A stretch of DNA of 64,000 bases, taken from assembly GCA_039804025.1 (NCBI GenBank), contig JBDRZP010000001.1:124001-188000 (forward strand), written 5' to 3'. Source of the stretch: a candidate division WOR-3 bacterium. Lineage in GTDB: Bacteria > Hydrothermota > Hydrothermia > Hydrothermales > JAJRUZ01. The position numbers and the translations under genes were made by a program. Positions 7,131 through 14,066 of the stretch are shown here, one piece after another (the first letter of the stretch is position 1; the number at the start of each line of letters is the position of its first letter). The notes under the pieces are model-generated. The model saw only the letters and a list, made by a program, of their open reading frames with translations, was not told where the DNA came from and searched no databases.

Positions 7131-7937
7131 ATGCTTGAAGAATATTTTGGATTTAAAAGAAATCCCTTCAAAAATACTGTAGACCTTGATTTTTTGTTCT
7201 GGGCTGATAAAGTAAAAGAAAGTTATGCAAGGGTTTTATATCATATCTTTGAACTAAAAGGTGGACTTTCACTTATTCTTGGTGAAATAGGGTGCGGGAA
7301 AACAACTCTTGCTAAATTACTTGAAAAGGACTTAAGAGAAAAAGGTAAAGAAGTCACAGTTTTTTATGATCCCTTAATAACTCCTTTAGAATTCCTTAAT
7401 ATACTTGCTAAGAAATTTTTAAAGTTAGAAGAAAACATAAAAAGAAACAAAACATTTTTAAGGAATGAACTCGAAAAAAAACTTAAAAGTGAACCTTTTA
7501 AATATATAGTAATAATTGATGAAGCACAGCTTCTTAATAAAAATCTCCTTGAAGAAATAAGGTTGCTTTTAAATATGGAAATATCCGAGGGAAAACTCCT
7601 TCAAATCGTCCTTTTTGGACAACCTGAATTAAAAAAGAAGTTAAAAAAACATCCTGCAATAATGCAAAGAATTGCCATTGCCTATACTTTAAATCCTTAC
7701 ACTGAAAAGGAAACAGAAGAATATATAAAACACAGATTAAAAGTTGCAGGTGGAGATGAAAATATATTTGAAAAAGAAGCAATTAAAGAAATTTATAAAG
7801 CTACAAAAGGGTATCCGAGATTAATTAATACTTTCTGTGCTAATGCCCTTTTTGTAACCTATTCACAGGATAAGAAAAAAGTAGACAAAAGTATTATTGA
7901 ACTTTTAAAAAAGGATTTTGAATTTCACATTGGTTAA
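7131..7937 (+). CDS. ExeA/TnpB-like AAA ATPase
   Basis: A 268-residue AAA ATPase of the ExeA (GspA) type. It begins with the family's typical MLEEYFGFKRNPF. Walker A is GEIGCGKTT, Walker B is YIVIIDEAQ, and LFGQPEL and KGYPRLIN are the later family motifs. I choose the ATG 2 nt after the TPR stop, because an upstream in-frame start at 7098 would add residues not seen in the family. ExeA proteins help assemble secretion-type complexes, and related ATPases occur in other envelope systems. No peptidoglycan-binding domain is present. It converges with the histidine ammonia-lyase gene, overlapping by 4 nt. Confidence 0.85.
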   Translation: MLEEYFGFKRNPFKNTVDLDFLFWADKVKESYARVLYHIFELKGGLSLILGEIGCGKTTLAKLLEKDLREKGKEVTVFYDPLITPLEFLNILAKKFLKLEENIKRNKTFLRNELEKKLKSEPFKYIVIIDEAQLLNKNLLEEIRLLLNMEISEGKLLQIVLFGQPELKKKLKKHPAIMQRIAIAYTLNPYTEKETEEYIKHRLKVAGGDENIFEKEAIKEIYKATKGYPRLINTFCANALFVTYSQDKKKVDKSIIELLKKDFEFHIG

Positions 7938-9400
7938 TTAAAATCTAAAACATTTTTTATCCTTTTAATAACTTCCCCTGGTTCTAAATCTTCAAGAAAT
8001 ATCTTTAAGTCTTTAAAATTTGAAGATAGAAAACTATCAAGTTCTGAGGGTAATTTTTTATTTAAAAGCAAACAGGCCCTCACTCCTGCGTAAAGTTCTG
8101 AAAAAGTTATTACTTTAAACTTATCAACCATATCAAAAAGTTTAAAACAGGAATTCATTGTCATGGGAACATAATCCTCCTGATTTTGTGAAGTTGGTAT
8201 TGAATCAGAAAGATCCGGAAAGGTTAAAGTTTTTATATAAGATAAAAGAGATACAACAAGATTATGTAATATCATTAGACCTGTTTTTTTACCGGGGTCC
8301 TTAGAAAGAAATTTAGGCATATCAATTACCTCACTTCCCATCAAATGATTAATCCTTCTTTCTGAGATATTTGATAAAACTGCTATTACCTTCTTTAAAT
8401 TCTCAGAAACAAAGGAAAGCCGGATTCCAATAAAGTTTCCACCTGAAATAACCCTATCTCCTATGACTAAAGGATTATCGCTTACACACTCTATTTCTTC
8501 TTCTATCACTCTTTTACAGAACTCAAAAATTTCATCACATGTTCCTCTTACCTGTGGCATACATCTGAAAGAGTAAGGATCCTGAATAATTTTCTTTTTC
8601 TTTTCAAATTTATAATCCTTAAGTAAATCCCTGTAATATTTAGCTATTTTTTTCTCATTTTTAGAATTTCTTAAAACTATAAGGTTCTCATTAAATATAT
8701 CTGGATTTCCATCTACTGCAACAAAAGAAAATAAATATGCTCTATCGTATATATTCAGTATATTTTCAAGAATTTTAATTAGATAAACTAAAAAAGCAAG
8801 GGAAACCTGAGTTCCATTAATAAGAGCAAGTCCCTCTTTATACTTAAGTTCAAGAGGTAATGTATTCGTTGATTTTAAAACAAGATATGTAGGTAAAATT
8901 CTGCCCTCATGAAGAACCATTCCTCTACCTGTAAGGGCAAGAGCTATATGAGAAAGAGGAATAAGATCTCCACTTGCTCCAAGTGAGCCGAAAGCAGGAA
9001 CATAAGGAACAATATCTTTATTTAAAAATTCCTCTATCTTATTAAGAACTTCAGGTCTTACCCCTGAATAACCCTTTGACAGCATATAAAGCCTTAAAAA
9101 CATAGCAATTCTAACAATCTCCTTTTTAAGAGGTTCTCCATAGCCTGAAGAGTGTGATATTACTATATCTCTCTGTAATTCATTCAATTCATCAAAATTT
9201 AGTATTTTGTCAGCGAGTCTCCCAACACCTGTATTAACTCCGTATACAGTTTCACCTTTATTTACTATATTCTCAAGAACTCCCCTGTTTTCTTTAACTC
9301 TCTTTAAAACATCCTGTTCTATCTTAACTTTTTTACCTTTTCCAATTAAAAAAAGTTCATCAATTGTAAGTTTATCAATTCCAATATGAAAGTATCTCAT
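7934..9400 (-). CDS. hutH: Histidine ammonia-lyase
   Basis: A 488-residue enzyme of the aromatic amino acid lyase family. The MIO cofactor forms from Ala142-Ser143-Gly144 in GSLGASGDL. YGVNTGVG carries the catalytic tyrosine. The selectivity position reads Ser-His (82-83), as in histidine rather than tyrosine or phenylalanine lyases. The product would be urocanate and ammonia. No hutU, hutI or hutG lies in the window. It is the last gene of a minus-strand series and begins 3 nt after the endonuclease Q stop. Confidence 0.88.
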   Translation of the reverse strand: MRYFHIGIDKLTIDELFLIGKGKKVKIEQDVLKRVKENRGVLENIVNKGETVYGVNTGVGRLADKILNFDELNELQRDIVISHSSGYGEPLKKEIVRIAMFLRLYMLSKGYSGVRPEVLNKIEEFLNKDIVPYVPAFGSLGASGDLIPLSHIALALTGRGMVLHEGRILPTYLVLKSTNTLPLELKYKEGLALINGTQVSLAFLVYLIKILENILNIYDRAYLFSFVAVDGNPDIFNENLIVLRNSKNEKKIAKYYRDLLKDYKFEKKKKIIQDPYSFRCMPQVRGTCDEIFEFCKRVIEEEIECVSDNPLVIGDRVISGGNFIGIRLSFVSENLKKVIAVLSNISERRINHLMGSEVIDMPKFLSKDPGKKTGLMILHNLVVSLLSYIKTLTFPDLSDSIPTSQNQEDYVPMTMNSCFKLFDMVDKFKVITFSELYAGVRACLLLNKKLPSELDSFLSSNFKDLKIFLEDLEPGEVIKRIKNVLDFN

Positions 9401-9403
9401 ATT

Positions 9404-10669
9404 CTAAAACAGAGACATTTGGGGAGGTTTCTCCTCATTATCCTCATCCCTTTCCACAATTTTTACTTCGATATCCTCATAAACTTTTATTATTCCATAA
9501 ACACCATCATAACCCGGAATTTTCTTAACCTTTCCTTCTCGCATATTTTTAATACCTAAAGCAATTCTTGAATCCACTGTTTTTGAAATTTCTTCATAAG
9601 TAACATCCATTAAAACATTAATTTCGTTTTCAAATTTTTTTATTAGAAGTTCCCATATTTTTTCGGTTTCTCTTGTATTCTCGCTTTTCCCTATTGCTTG
9701 CGATATTATCTCTTTTAAAGGGACAAGATTTTTATATGGTATATAGTTTGAAGGTTTATAACCCATTTCTCTATCAGCAAGTTTATAAACTCTTGAAAGC
9801 ACACCTACAGTTAATAATCTTCCACATTTTGGACAAATATAATTCAATTTTTTGGATTCCTCTGGATGGAGTGAGATTCCACAATTCCTGTGTCCATCAT
9901 AATGATACTTCCCCTCTTCAGGAAAAAATTCAATAGTAAATAAAAATTTTTCTCTATCTTTTTTCTTTAAAACCTCTTTTAACTCTTTATATGAAAGATA
10001 ACCTTTAAAAACATTAGCTTCCCTACCTATTCTATCAGGTGAATGAGAATCTGAATTGGAAACAAGGGAAAATTTATCAAGACCTGAAAGCATCCAGTTC
10101 ATTTCTGGATCTGATGAGAGACCTGTTTCTAAAGCTGTAATTTCTGATACATAATTTTCAAAAGCCTCTTCAAGTGAATCAAAACCTGAATTGGAACCAA
10201 AAAGGGAAAACCAAGGTGTCCATATATGAGCAGGAATAATCATTATATCCTTTGAAATTTCCCTCACAATTTCTATAAATCTAACAGTATCAAGGGATAG
10301 AGTGGGTCTTCCATCAGAAGTGAGAGAACCATAAAGGGATAACTTTCTTTCAAGTTTTTCAACTGTTATAAAATCGGGAAAGGTTAAAACAATATGAATT
10401 TTCCTCACCTTTCCTTCTTTTGAAAATACAAGACTTACTTCAGTAGTTAATATAAATAAAACTTCATTCACCTCAAAATATCCATCTCCTCTTTCTTTTA
10501 AAATTTTTTTAAGTTCTCTTCTATATTCAGGATGCAGGATGTCACCTGTTCCTAATAAGTTAATCCCCTTAAGTTTTGCATATTTAGAAAGAATATCAGG
10601 CCTCATATTTGAGCTTGTCGCTCTTGAGTAAGGGGAATGAACATGAATATCGGTAATAAAGTATTTCAT
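9404..10669 (-). CDS. Endonuclease Q-like PHP nuclease with C-terminal clamp-binding motif
   Basis: A 421-residue protein. An N-terminal PHP metal-binding domain (His9 and His11 in DIHVHSPYS, PAHIWTPW, SNSDSH) is followed by a zinc-finger-like segment (NCGISLH, CPKCGRLL) and a C-terminal helical part. This is the layout of EndoQ, which nicks DNA 5' of deaminated bases. The last five residues are QMSLF, close to the bacterial sliding-clamp-binding consensus QLSLF; archaeal EndoQ uses a PCNA-binding motif at the same end. It overlaps the methyltransferase gene by 4 nt. Confidence 0.85.
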   Translation of the reverse strand: MKYFITDIHVHSPYSRATSSNMRPDILSKYAKLKGINLLGTGDILHPEYRRELKKILKERGDGYFEVNEVLFILTTEVSLVFSKEGKVRKIHIVLTFPDFITVEKLERKLSLYGSLTSDGRPTLSLDTVRFIEIVREISKDIMIIPAHIWTPWFSLFGSNSGFDSLEEAFENYVSEITALETGLSSDPEMNWMLSGLDKFSLVSNSDSHSPDRIGREANVFKGYLSYKELKEVLKKKDREKFLFTIEFFPEEGKYHYDGHRNCGISLHPEESKKLNYICPKCGRLLTVGVLSRVYKLADREMGYKPSNYIPYKNLVPLKEIISQAIGKSENTRETEKIWELLIKKFENEINVLMDVTYEEISKTVDSRIALGIKNMREGKVKKIPGYDGVYGIIKVYEDIEVKIVERDEDNEEKPPQMSLF

Positions 10670-11367
10670 TTTATTGATACATATTGCACTCTTGTAGTAT
10701 AAGAATTTGGCTCACTATACTTCAAATGTTCATATACATTAGTTATTCTGAATCCAGTTTTTTTTAGAATATCTATAATTTCTTCTACTTTATAACCTTT
10801 TTCAAAGTGAAATTCTTTAACAGATTTTTTTAATCCGTTTTCTTCCCATTCAATTTGTATTTCAAGTTTAGAAATTTTTTCATCTTCAAACCACTCATTT
10901 TTCCATACTGAAGTAAAATTTTTATGAACTTTTACTTCTAATCTTTTATCCCATATTTCTTTCAAAGCAAAAATGGTATTCATATCGAATATAAAAGCAC
11001 CGCCTCTTTCAAGGTTTTCGTAGGCACATTTAAAACAATTGAAAAGATCTTCTTCAGAAAGCAAGTAATTCATACTGTCAAAAAAACAGAAAATAGCATC
11101 AAAATTTTTCTTGAAATGGAAATTTCTTAAATCTGAAACTATAAGCTTAATTTTTTTATCTTTTAATTTCTGAATTTTAGCTTTTCCAACCTCAAGCATT
11201 TGAATTGACCTATCAAGACCGACAATATCTTCACAAAACTCAGAAAGATAAATAGTTGGAGTTAATGTGCCACATGCAAGATCAAGAAATCTTCTCTTTT
11301 TAACATTAAAAATATCAAGAAAGGAAAGGGAATAATTAACCCAGGTTTTATAAGAAACATATTCCAT
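10666..11367 (-). CDS. SAM-dependent methyltransferase (class I)
   Basis: A class I methyltransferase with motif I FLDLACGTLTPT, an acidic motif II end (VGLDRS), VSDLRNF and the DAIFCFFDSMNYLL post-motif. The substrate is unknown. The ATG given here yields 233 residues. Upstream in-frame codons still read KPFSKIARFYDEL, which looks like the usual N-terminus of such enzymes. No ATG, GTG or TTG precedes them in frame before the isocitrate dehydrogenase stop, so the true start may be non-canonical (for example ATT near 11412) or the N-terminus has decayed. Confidence 0.8.
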   Translation of the reverse strand: MEYVSYKTWVNYSLSFLDIFNVKKRRFLDLACGTLTPTIYLSEFCEDIVGLDRSIQMLEVGKAKIQKLKDKKIKLIVSDLRNFHFKKNFDAIFCFFDSMNYLLSEEDLFNCFKCAYENLERGGAFIFDMNTIFALKEIWDKRLEVKVHKNFTSVWKNEWFEDEKISKLEIQIEWEENGLKKSVKEFHFEKGYKVEEIIDILKKTGFRITNVYEHLKYSEPNSYTTRVQYVSIK

Positions 11368-11426: not shown

Positions 11427-12626
11427 TTAAATATGGCTCTGAAAAGAAAGCCAGTATTCCTTTAAATCTCCCCTTTTAAGAGTATCAATTACATAATCTG
11501 TAAACTCAGAACCTGTGGCACCTGTTGATCTTCCTGTTATTAACACTTTTTTTTCATACTGTCCGCATATATCAAGAGCCATATCAAGTAAATCACCCTT
11601 TTCCTTATAACCAATATGCCTCAAAAGCATTGCTGAAGCTCTCATAATGCTTGAAGGATCAGCATAGCGGGCTCTACCCTCCTCTACCATTCTTGGAGCA
11701 GAACCATGTATTGCTTCAAACATAGCATATCTTTTTCCAACATTGGCACTTCCGGCAGTTCCAACACCACCCTGAAATTCAGCAGCCTCATCTGTTAATA
11801 TATCACCATATAAATTTGGCATAACAAAAACCTGGAATTCAGTCCTTCTTTTTTTATCAATCAATTTTGCAGTCATGATATCAATAAACCAGTCATCTGC
11901 CTCTATTTCAGGGTATTCCTTTGCTATTTCATAAAAAACCTTCAAAAATCTTCCATCTGTCTTTTTTATAACATTAGCCTTTGTAACTGCTGTTACCCTT
12001 TTCTTTCCGTTTTTCCTTGCATATTCAAAGGCAAGTTTTATAATCCTTTCACTTCCAGGTGTGGTAATAACCTTGAAATCAACAGATAAATCCTCTGTTA
12101 CATCTATTCCTTCACTTCCAACAGCATAAAGATCCTCTGTATTTTCCCTGAAAAATATCCAGTCAATACCTTCAGAAGGAACTCTAACCGGTCTTATATT
12201 TGCAAATAGATCAAGTTCTTTTCTTAATGCCACATTAGCACTTTCAATGTTTGGCCAAGGATCACCTGCCTTTGGTGTGGTAGTAGGTCCTTTAAGAAGA
12301 ACATGACATTTTTTTATTTCATCAAGAACGTAAGGAGGTACTGCCTTATTAACTTTTGCCCTTTCCTCTATTGTAAGTCCTTCAATTTTTTTAAATTCTA
12401 TTTTACCTTCTTTTTCTTCATCACTTAATAAAAATTTAAGCACTCTGAAAGCCTCATCAGTTATAAAAGGACCTATTCCATCTCCCCCTGCAATCCCAAT
12501 TATAATTGGTTTTAATTTTGAATAATCAATCCAGTCTTCCCCGGTTTTAATTCTTTGGACTCTTTCAATCTGTTTTTTTAAAATTTCTGAAAATTTCTCC
12601 TGTGCTTTTTTAATTACATCTTCCAT
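11427..12626 (-). CDS. Isocitrate dehydrogenase (NAD or NADP)
   Basis: A 399-residue beta-decarboxylating dehydrogenase that converts isocitrate to 2-oxoglutarate. The substrate loop IESANVALR has the Ser-x-Asn pattern of isocitrate dehydrogenases. FFRENTEDLYA, the lysine in VTKANVIKKTDG and MPNLYGDILTDEAAEFQGG are the other family blocks. The coenzyme loop after HGSAP lacks the Lys-Tyr of classical NADP enzymes, so cofactor choice is open. It lies downstream of sucD and the lolA-like gene; with sucD it provides two steps around 2-oxoglutarate. A T-arm-like element inside the end of the upstream gene precedes it. Confidence 0.92.
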   Translation of the reverse strand: MEDVIKKAQEKFSEILKKQIERVQRIKTGEDWIDYSKLKPIIIGIAGGDGIGPFITDEAFRVLKFLLSDEEKEGKIEFKKIEGLTIEERAKVNKAVPPYVLDEIKKCHVLLKGPTTTPKAGDPWPNIESANVALRKELDLFANIRPVRVPSEGIDWIFFRENTEDLYAVGSEGIDVTEDLSVDFKVITTPGSERIIKLAFEYARKNGKKRVTAVTKANVIKKTDGRFLKVFYEIAKEYPEIEADDWFIDIMTAKLIDKKRRTEFQVFVMPNLYGDILTDEAAEFQGGVGTAGSANVGKRYAMFEAIHGSAPRMVEEGRARYADPSSIMRASAMLLRHIGYKEKGDLLDMALDICGQYEKKVLITGRSTGATGSEFTDYVIDTLKRGDLKEYWLSFQSHI

Positions 12627-12627
12627 T

Positions 12628-13197
12628 TTATTTTTTCTCTTTTTTCAGGGATTGAACCTTTTGAAAAATCTCTTCACTTAAAATTGGATTTATAATAAAC
12701 TTTTTAAAAACTATCACATATTCTACTGAAAGTGATGAAGAAATTATATTCAATTTGTAAGGTTTTTTATCATTTATAGGTAAAAATAACTTTATTAAAT
12801 CATAAACATAATTTGTATCTTTTCTTTCAAAAACATAGATAACAGTATCTTTCCTATTTTTTTCTTCTTTTAAAGAATATAAATTTTCAAAATTAAAAAG
12901 GAAAAAATCTGGTAAATAGGGGGAAGAAAAGATTTCAGTTTCCTTTTTATCATCAAAATCATATAAAAAAACTTTATCCTTACGGACAAATAAAAGCTGT
13001 GAATCAGGCTCTGTTATTAAAAACTTTAGATACCCTTTTCTATCTGCCCATAATTTTCCCTTGTATTCTGTCCTTTCTCCATCAGAAACTAAAATTTCAT
13101 CAAACTCCGCGTATAGGGCATTAACATTGTTTAAATAATATTTGTTTATCTCCTCCCAGGGCAAAAGAAAAATTAAAAAAGAAAAAAAATTTATCAT
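12628..13197 (-). CDS. LolA-like outer-membrane lipoprotein carrier
   Basis: A 189-residue exported protein with a hydrophobic start ([10 protein letters not shown]) and a beta-rich body with the rhythm of LolA/LppX folds ([45 protein letters not shown]). LolA carries lipoproteins across the periplasm to the outer membrane, and this would agree with the LPS genes in the window. Sequence signatures are weak, so the family call is moderate. It overlaps sucD by 4 nt. The codons for KVQSL near its end also spell the T-arm-like element of the next gene. Confidence 0.65.
12648..12658 (-). promoter_or_regulatory. Orphan T-arm-like leader element (isocitrate dehydrogenase), inside upstream CDS
   Basis: The minus strand reads GGTTCAATCCC with an AGG/CCT stem and loop TTCAATC. 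It ends 21 nt before the ATG at 12626. It is entirely inside the last codons of the lolA-like gene, so it is an operon-internal element. The following purine-rich leader has no clear Shine-Dalgarno sequence. Confidence 0.65.
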
Positions 13198-14066
13198 TTT
13201 GAAAGGGATTCTTTCATTAAAATGGCAACTTCTGAAGGTAAACTGGCAACTTTTACATTTGCTTCTTCTAATGCTTTAATTTTACTTTCAGCAGTTCCTT
13301 TTCCTCCTTCAATAATAGCACCTGCATGACCCATCCTTTTTTCAGGTGGAGCTGTTCTTCCTGCTATAAAAGCAACAACAGGTTTTGATACATGATTTTT
13401 AATAAATTCTGCAGCATCCTCTTCATCCGTTCCTCCAATTTCACCAATTAAAACAATTCCCTCTGTCTCAGGGTCTTTTTCAAATAACTCAAGAACATCT
13501 ATAAATCTTGTCCCTATTATAGGATCCCCTCCAATTCCAATAGCTGTTGATTGTCCTAAACCATTATTGGTTAAATGATAAACAACTTCATAGGTTAATG
13601 TCCCACTTCTTGAAACAACACCTATATTTCCCTTTTTAAAAATGTGACCTGGCATTATACCAACCTTTGCTATTGAAGGAGCAATAATTCCAGGGCAATT
13701 AGGACCTATTATCCTTACATCCATACCCCTTATATAATCGAGAACTTCTGCCATATCCTGAGCCGGAATTCCCTCAGTTATGGTAACAATAAGTTTTATT
13801 CCAGCATCTATTGCTTCATACATTGCATCTTTCGCAAACTGCGCGGGAACAAAAATTATCGATGTATTTGCACTTTCTTTTTTAACAGCTTCAAATACAC
13901 TATCAAAAACAGGTATATTATCAACTTTTTGTCCACCTTTACCAGGAGTAACTCCTCCAACAACATTTGTCCCATATTCTTTCATTTTTATTGCATGAAA
14001 TGAGCCATCGCGTCCTGTTATTCCCTGAACAATAACTCTTGTTTCCTTTGATAAAAGTATTGCCAT
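13194..14066 (-). CDS. sucD: Succinyl-CoA synthetase, alpha subunit
   Basis: A 290-residue alpha subunit that interconverts succinyl-CoA and succinate with nucleotide triphosphate formation. It has a CoA-binding Rossmann domain ([19 protein letters not shown]), the [10 protein letters not shown] motif and a phosphohistidine expected at His247 in GHAGAI. The beta subunit gene sucC is not adjacent, which is unusual. A GGAGGG Shine-Dalgarno sequence lies 6 nt before the ATG, and a TATAAT box lies about 30 nt upstream. It heads the operon that continues to hutH. Confidence 0.95.

Follow-up and report, generated by a model that had tools for sequence, protein, structure and literature searches.

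In Thermococcus kodakarensis, endonuclease Q (EndoQ) carries a C-terminal PIP box that binds PCNA with a KD of 55 nM, and without it both the binding and the stimulation are lost, as reported in the part of PMC4858679 that deals with this enzyme. The presence of a beta-clamp consensus in the C-terminal region of bacterial EndoQ homologues was stated in the same paper in 2016, thus the proposal of a clamp motif for bacterial EndoQ is not new. Motifs of this kind follow the consensus QLxLF and are often C-terminal, and beta-type and PCNA-type peptides cross-bind, according to the passages on clamp peptides in PMC4549789. For the Pyrococcus furiosus enzyme (PfuEndoQ), the catalytic residues Glu76, His84 and His139 and the base-pocket residues Gly169 and Ser171 are described in the active-site passages of PMC8307549, and the zinc site of the P. 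furiosus and T. kodakarensis enzymes is given as four cysteines in those of PMC4357722.

Here we analysed a 64,000-nucleotide stretch (the window) from the genome of a candidate division WOR-3 bacterium that encodes an EndoQ homologue. The protein resembles archaeal EndoQ (P. furiosus PF1551, T. kodakarensis TK0887) in its predicted fold, in its active-site residues and in a clamp motif placed at the extreme C-terminus after the core. It differs in that the motif has the short beta-clamp form QMSLF, whereas the archaeal PIP forms given in PMC4858679 are QRTLLQYI and QRSITEFL, and in that the candidate zinc site reads H-x2-C...C-x2-C in place of the four archaeal cysteines (PMC4357722, in the passages noted above). 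Like the enzymes of Bacillus pumilus and B. subtilis, which come from another phylum, it is a bacterial EndoQ. Bacterial EndoMS/NucS, a mismatch endonuclease with a fold unrelated to that of EndoQ, is likewise a nuclease common to archaea and bacteria, and reportedly, by the title of a paper, its action in bacteria is clamp-mediated. What is new here is the breadth, EndoQ being common in candidate phyla, and the context, namely pyrimidine genes, genomes in which no uracil-DNA glycosylase is found, and fusion to a helicase.

Identity, active site and neighbourhood of the WOR-3 endonuclease Q

An EndoQ ending in QMSLF had been claimed for this locus in an earlier note on the window, and the claim was borne out by an exact open reading frame, running from ATG to TAG and ending in the residues EKPPQMSLF, together with a full-length match to PfuEndoQ. 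In a phmmer search of PDB sequences the best match was PfuEndoQ 5zb8 (E 2.8e-71, residues 7-402); three PfuEndoQ sequences were matched with E values from 2.8e-71 to 1.6e-70, and no other PDB sequence was matched up to E 1. The NCBIfam model TIGR00375 scored 211.6 bits over positions 3-374 of its 374 without reaching the curated cut-off of 326.6, which is an annotation threshold and not a property of the enzyme. An AlphaFold2 model built on 33 aligned sequences had a mean pLDDT of 89.4, and Foldseek placed three 5zb8 chains at the top (TM 0.83-0.84 / 0.88), followed by 7k30, with other PHP proteins far lower. The order of domains is a PHP domain, a zinc-binding domain, a C-terminal helical domain and a disordered tail. 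We regard the identification as EndoQ, made from the sequence and the predicted fold, as secure; within the family, the window's copy is ordinary.

For comparison across the family we used 115 representatives, that is EndoQ copies below 90% identity, from which four loci of the set made up of the host genome and its relatives had been dropped by the non-overlap filter. With the residue register taken from the alignment to PfuEndoQ, E77, H92 and H148 correspond to the catalytic Glu76, His84 and His139, and G183 and S185 to Gly169 and Ser171 of the base pocket; each of the five is invariant in 115/115 representatives. The same holds for each of the four candidate zinc ligands H260, C263, C279 and C282, a set compatible with a four-ligand site without being literally four cysteines. 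The features of the locus are collected in the table.

Features of the window around endoQ (positions from the first letter of the window)
Feature	Position	Strand	Basis or remark
endoQ, 421-aa endonuclease Q homologue	9404..10669	minus	ORF, phmmer, predicted fold
QMSLF codons, residues 417-421, predicted beta-clamp-binding motif	9407..9421	minus	sequence and conservation
Linker codons, residues 401-416, predicted disordered	9422..9469	minus	pLDDT; positions ahead of the motif not strongly conserved
Predicted zinc-site codons His260, Cys263, Cys279, Cys282	9824..9892	minus	invariance; alignment to the PfuEndoQ Cys site
Histidine-ammonia-lyase-like gene	7934..9400	minus	3 nt past the endoQ stop; below family cut-off
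SAM-dependent methyltransferase-like gene	10666..11367	minus	4-nt overlap with the endoQ start; below family cut-off
Isocitrate/isopropylmalate dehydrogenase family gene	11427-12626	minus	upstream of endoQ; below family cut-off
LolA-like gene	12628-13197	minus	upstream of endoQ; below family cut-off
sucD	13194-14066	minus	upstream of endoQ; above family cut-off
Upstream run sucD / LolA-like / dehydrogenase	11427..14066	minus	same run as endoQ

The neighbourhood of sucD and isocitrate dehydrogenase had also been noted before, and it holds at the strengths given in the table; the two genes that flank endoQ most closely, the methyltransferase-like and the histidine-ammonia-lyase-like one, go unnamed in the earlier note. 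A position of endoQ among repair genes was considered for the window and rejected, the scanned neighbours being metabolic or of unclear role. In the neighbour table, which leaves out the four filtered loci, endoQ has a gene of the methyltransferase family immediately upstream in 24/115 representative loci and one of the histidine-ammonia-lyase-like family nearby in five of the 115, the window's included. A HIT/ATP-adenylyltransferase-like gene adjoins endoQ in 24/115 loci, downstream in 23 and upstream in one.

The C-terminal motif and the beta clamp

Residues 401-421 have pLDDT values below 50 and are predicted to be disordered, so that the QLxLF-type motif sits in a predicted flexible segment at the terminus. 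Its conservation was followed in three sets of EndoQ copies. The first comprised the host genome and its relatives, where an EndoQ match was present in 70/100 genomes searched; the second, picked by similarity, the best 80 loci among the genome_contigs matches listed, some of them from genomes shared with the first; and the third an evenly drawn Omnitrophota sample with 30 copies in 29/58 genomes. An exact Q..LF end was found in 54 of the 70 copies of the first set, with the motif plus one extra residue in 4, no motif in 11 and 1 copy running off its contig, its last residues being QLELF. The corresponding counts were 61 exact ends, 13 close variants and 6 copies without the motif in the second set, and 14 exact ends, 11 variants, 4 without and 1 off contig in the third, where four of the variants are helicase fusions and another is a second copy that has diverged, and where a truncated frame accounts for one of the motif-less copies. 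The archaeal side of the tail comparison consisted of the two tails given in PMC4858679, the best 80 genome_contigs loci being bacterial by title.

Among the 115 representatives, Q stands at position -5 in 95, L at -2 in 96 and F at -1 in 97, while the two middle positions vary, mainly among L/M/K/I and S/T/K/E. Ahead of the motif, no residue is present in more than 37/110 representatives at any of the positions -7 to -14. The tail after the EndoQ core is mostly 15-29 residues long with a maximum of 62 (of 129 tails, six are shorter and four longer than this range). Conservation of the terminal pentapeptide in relatives had been named as the check on the earlier note; run on these copies, it showed Q, L and F kept in a tail that otherwise diverges. 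A chance origin is ruled out by shuffled tails, in which Q..LF appeared in a mean of 0.064 and a maximum of 2 of 115 over 500 shuffles, and by the background in other ORFs of the same loci, where the exact pattern ended 0/991 and a looser one 4/991. Furthermore, EndoQ is the sole protein ending in Q..LF among the 86 closed stop-to-stop ORFs of at least 100 aa in the window, overlapping frames counted. Judged from these sequences, Q, L and F fixed behind a freely varying linker mark a short linear motif under selection. Relatives in many bacterial phyla share this ending.

The motif-less copies of the first set fall into a few types: four keep LF without the Q, two end in SPLLW(Q), and five come from one family (L150-L154), fast-evolving, in which only 5-8 residues follow the core. 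Every catalytic residue examined is kept in these five, which shows that the motif is dispensable for whatever this clade does.

The host genome encodes a beta clamp, DnaN (G000:C2:147942, 362 aa; best PDB match 7rzm, 9.3e-40), and gave 0 matches to PCNA_N, a search whose control was positive in four archaea. MutS, a clamp client elsewhere, has the same consensus as the EndoQ tail in the form QLELF, which covers residues 795-799 of the open frame (G000:C21:31664-34135) near the C-terminus; unlike EndoQ, it is a mismatch recognition ATPase and its motif is not at the very end. No match to Q..[LM][FLI] was found in DnaE of this genome besides an internal QVMLI, none in its uracil-DNA glycosylase (UDG) and EndoV, and no clamp motif match in its Y-family polymerase homologue and MutS2-like protein, so that MutS is the only positive control within the genome. 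Motif-like pentapeptides also arise by chance inside other proteins, e.g. QEALF and QVSMF in the frame adjoining dnaN. The DNA pattern for a C-terminal Q..LF matched at 275 places across the whole genome and its reversed control at 140, which makes it too loose for listing clamp clients; among the first 30 of the 275 (C1, to about 191 kb), only the match of EndoQ closes an ORF of at least 120 aa.

Bacterial distribution, genomic context and helicase fusions

The earlier note had held that EndoQ has few bacterial examples. This was wrong: besides the 70/100 genomes of the host and its relatives and 29/58 Omnitrophota genomes, at least 564 genome_contigs stretches matched. The genome searches show it to be common among WOR-3-like lineages and in Omnitrophota, and the titles among the genome_contigs matches listed also include Aminicenantes, Patescibacteria-type groups, Armatimonadota, Planctomycetota, Zixibacteria and Deltaproteobacteria. 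No EndoQ match at E 1e-5 came from the phage and plasmid collections, which thus give no hint that the gene spreads on mobile elements.

The host genome encodes a PF03167 UDG and EndoV as well as EndoQ, so that EndoQ is one of several routes there. In the 100 genomes, own included, PF03167 was not found in 12/70 EndoQ-positive (G044, G046, G052, G058, G071, G079, G080, G083, G089, G093, G095 and G097) versus 3/30 EndoQ-negative genomes, and its absence is therefore not clearly tied to EndoQ. G097 is a single contig of 97% completeness, and G052, G058, G080, G093 and G095 gave no EndoV match either. Three of eight genomes behind other loci were also without a PF03167 match, namely CP070807 (L061; titled chromosome, a MAG), a further MAG (L074) and NZ_CP019384 of Velamenicoccus archaeovorus (L086; titled complete genome). 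Some of these absences could be explained by incomplete assemblies or by uracil enzymes outside PF03167. EndoV was missing in 27/70 EndoQ-positive versus 1/30 EndoQ-negative genomes (Fisher p 1.7e-4, uncorrected for phylogeny), and outside the class in 27/50 versus 1/10 (p 0.014, likewise uncorrected); we keep this association as a lead only.

In loci of the Omnitrophota type, endoQ lies amid pyrimidine genes, with pyrR, pyrB and pyrC upstream and carA, carB and pyrK downstream (L047, L049, L054, L066, L068, L076, L082, L106, L224-L237 and L239-L245, among others). Representatives of pyrR, pyrB, pyrC and carA scored above an NCBIfam cut-off and that of pyrK just below it (205.5 of 219), and the remaining neighbour is one that we take to be carB; a dUTPase representative reached 156.6 bits with NF002598 (cut-off 130). 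One or more of the seven were present in 22/30 evenly drawn Omnitrophota loci and, within the best 80 genome_contigs loci, in 24/25 of Omnitrophota versus 3/55 of others. The count for the window's relatives was 0/70, on stretches averaging 6.4 kb and so shorter than most others. The dUTPase gene, considered as a regular neighbour, was rejected as such and is an occasional one only (L049, L061, L068, L106 and L111), being near endoQ in 0/30 evenly drawn Omnitrophota loci and in 4/25 Omnitrophota and 1/55 other genome_contigs loci. A text search for "EndoQ" with "pyrimidine biosynthesis", with most subscription papers outside its scope, found no paper.

Four complete Omnitrophota frames of 1009-1079 aa (L248, L249, L250 and L251) consist of EndoQ followed by a UvrD/PcrA-like helicase; L215-L218 are cut stretches of the same genes. 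Two of the fusions were scanned, as cut stretches, with the PcrA model and gave E values of 6.7e-88 and 4.1e-81, with both scores short of the model's cut-off. The fused proteins end in QLSLFDTA, QLDLL, QLDLFA and QLDLL, and at the junction between EndoQ and helicase LF is retained without the Q. At another locus (L247), EndoQ and a UvrD-like protein occupy two separate frames in succession, the first ending in QLTLF and the second, of 560 aa, in QLDFFGKR, an arrangement that looks like the state before fusion. A relocation of the EndoQ motif to the new end of the fusions was considered and is weakened by the QLDFFGKR end of this separate frame, from which it follows that the motif of the fusions may have come with the helicase. 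One genome (G139) has both a helicase-fused EndoQ (L250) and a second, diverged stand-alone copy (L253) ending in QMEMF. The EndoQ passages of two papers that name both EndoQ and UvrD describe no fusion of the two.

Readings of the tail and their meaning

Very probably, EndoQ of the window binds the beta clamp in the way that its archaeal counterparts bind PCNA. This reading, which the earlier note had proposed, gains support from the conservation of Q, L and F, from a genome with DnaN and no PCNA match, and from the QLELF of MutS. The enzyme would nick 5' to deaminated bases (uracil and hypoxanthine; dU, dI, dX) and to abasic (AP) sites, and would do so with the metal site of its PHP domain and a pocket for the flipped base. 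Going by the model, the folded core would span residues 1 to about 400, and QMSLF would be held out at the very C-terminus on a flexible, charged linker of some 16 residues. The pentapeptide is predicted to fit the peptide pocket of DnaN, and such a fit would tether EndoQ to the beta clamp at sites of replication or repair, in parallel with the PIP box of archaeal EndoQ on PCNA; stimulation by the clamp may follow by the same analogy.

That a true EndoQ uses the motif for another partner, such as a helicase, a polymerase or an SSB-like protein, or for stability, is unlikely. Such a role would suit a clamp contact that is only predicted and a DnaE that is motif-less apart from QVMLI, yet fixed Q, L and F with variable positions 2 and 3 are the beta-clamp pattern published in the passages of PMC4549789 cited above, and archaeal EndoQ contacts PCNA from the same position in its sequence (PMC4858679, in its part on the T. 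kodakarensis enzyme). The QLELF of the host MutS and the QLSLF, QLDLF or QLDLL ends of the helicase fusions also argue for the clamp. Inheritance from a common ancestor without selection is scarcely credible and strongly disfavoured: the copies are homologous, and the spread over the tree suggests that the ancestor of the sampled bacterial copies probably had the motif, but the linker has diverged and varies in length while the terminal Q, L and F are kept.

A different type of PHP-domain hydrolase, one that does not act as a nuclease in DNA repair and has received the name EndoQ by annotation transfer, is also highly improbable. The score below the TIGR00375 cut-off and the metabolic neighbours in the window would fit such an enzyme, whereas the full-length match, which includes the zinc and C-terminal domains, and the invariant base-pocket residues point to EndoQ, as do the association with pyrimidine genes in Omnitrophota (with dUTPase in few loci) and the fusion to a UvrD/PcrA-like helicase.

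With docking of EndoQ on the beta clamp as the preferred reading, a wider proposal can be put forward tentatively, as possible though doubtful as a whole. In several candidate phyla EndoQ may be the main, and in some lineages the sole, initiator of uracil-DNA repair, working with the clamp and replacing UDG. In Omnitrophota it might be expressed within the operon for pyrimidine synthesis, with repair capacity tracking the supply of pyrimidine (and dUTP), and in a few genomes a single clamp-docked EndoQ-UvrD/PcrA enzyme might nick beside the lesion and unwind the damaged strand.

For the specialist, the interest lies in the breadth and context across bacteria more than in the window's gene. The EndoQ-positive genomes with no detectable PF03167, one of them titled complete genome and one titled chromosome, make glycosylase-free repair directly testable. 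If the tail works as predicted, one repair nuclease has been plugged into two unrelated clamps, one in each prokaryotic domain, by swaps of a few terminal residues, and glycosylase-free repair of deaminated bases would be a broad bacterial pathway rather than a peculiarity of archaea that turns up sporadically in bacteria.
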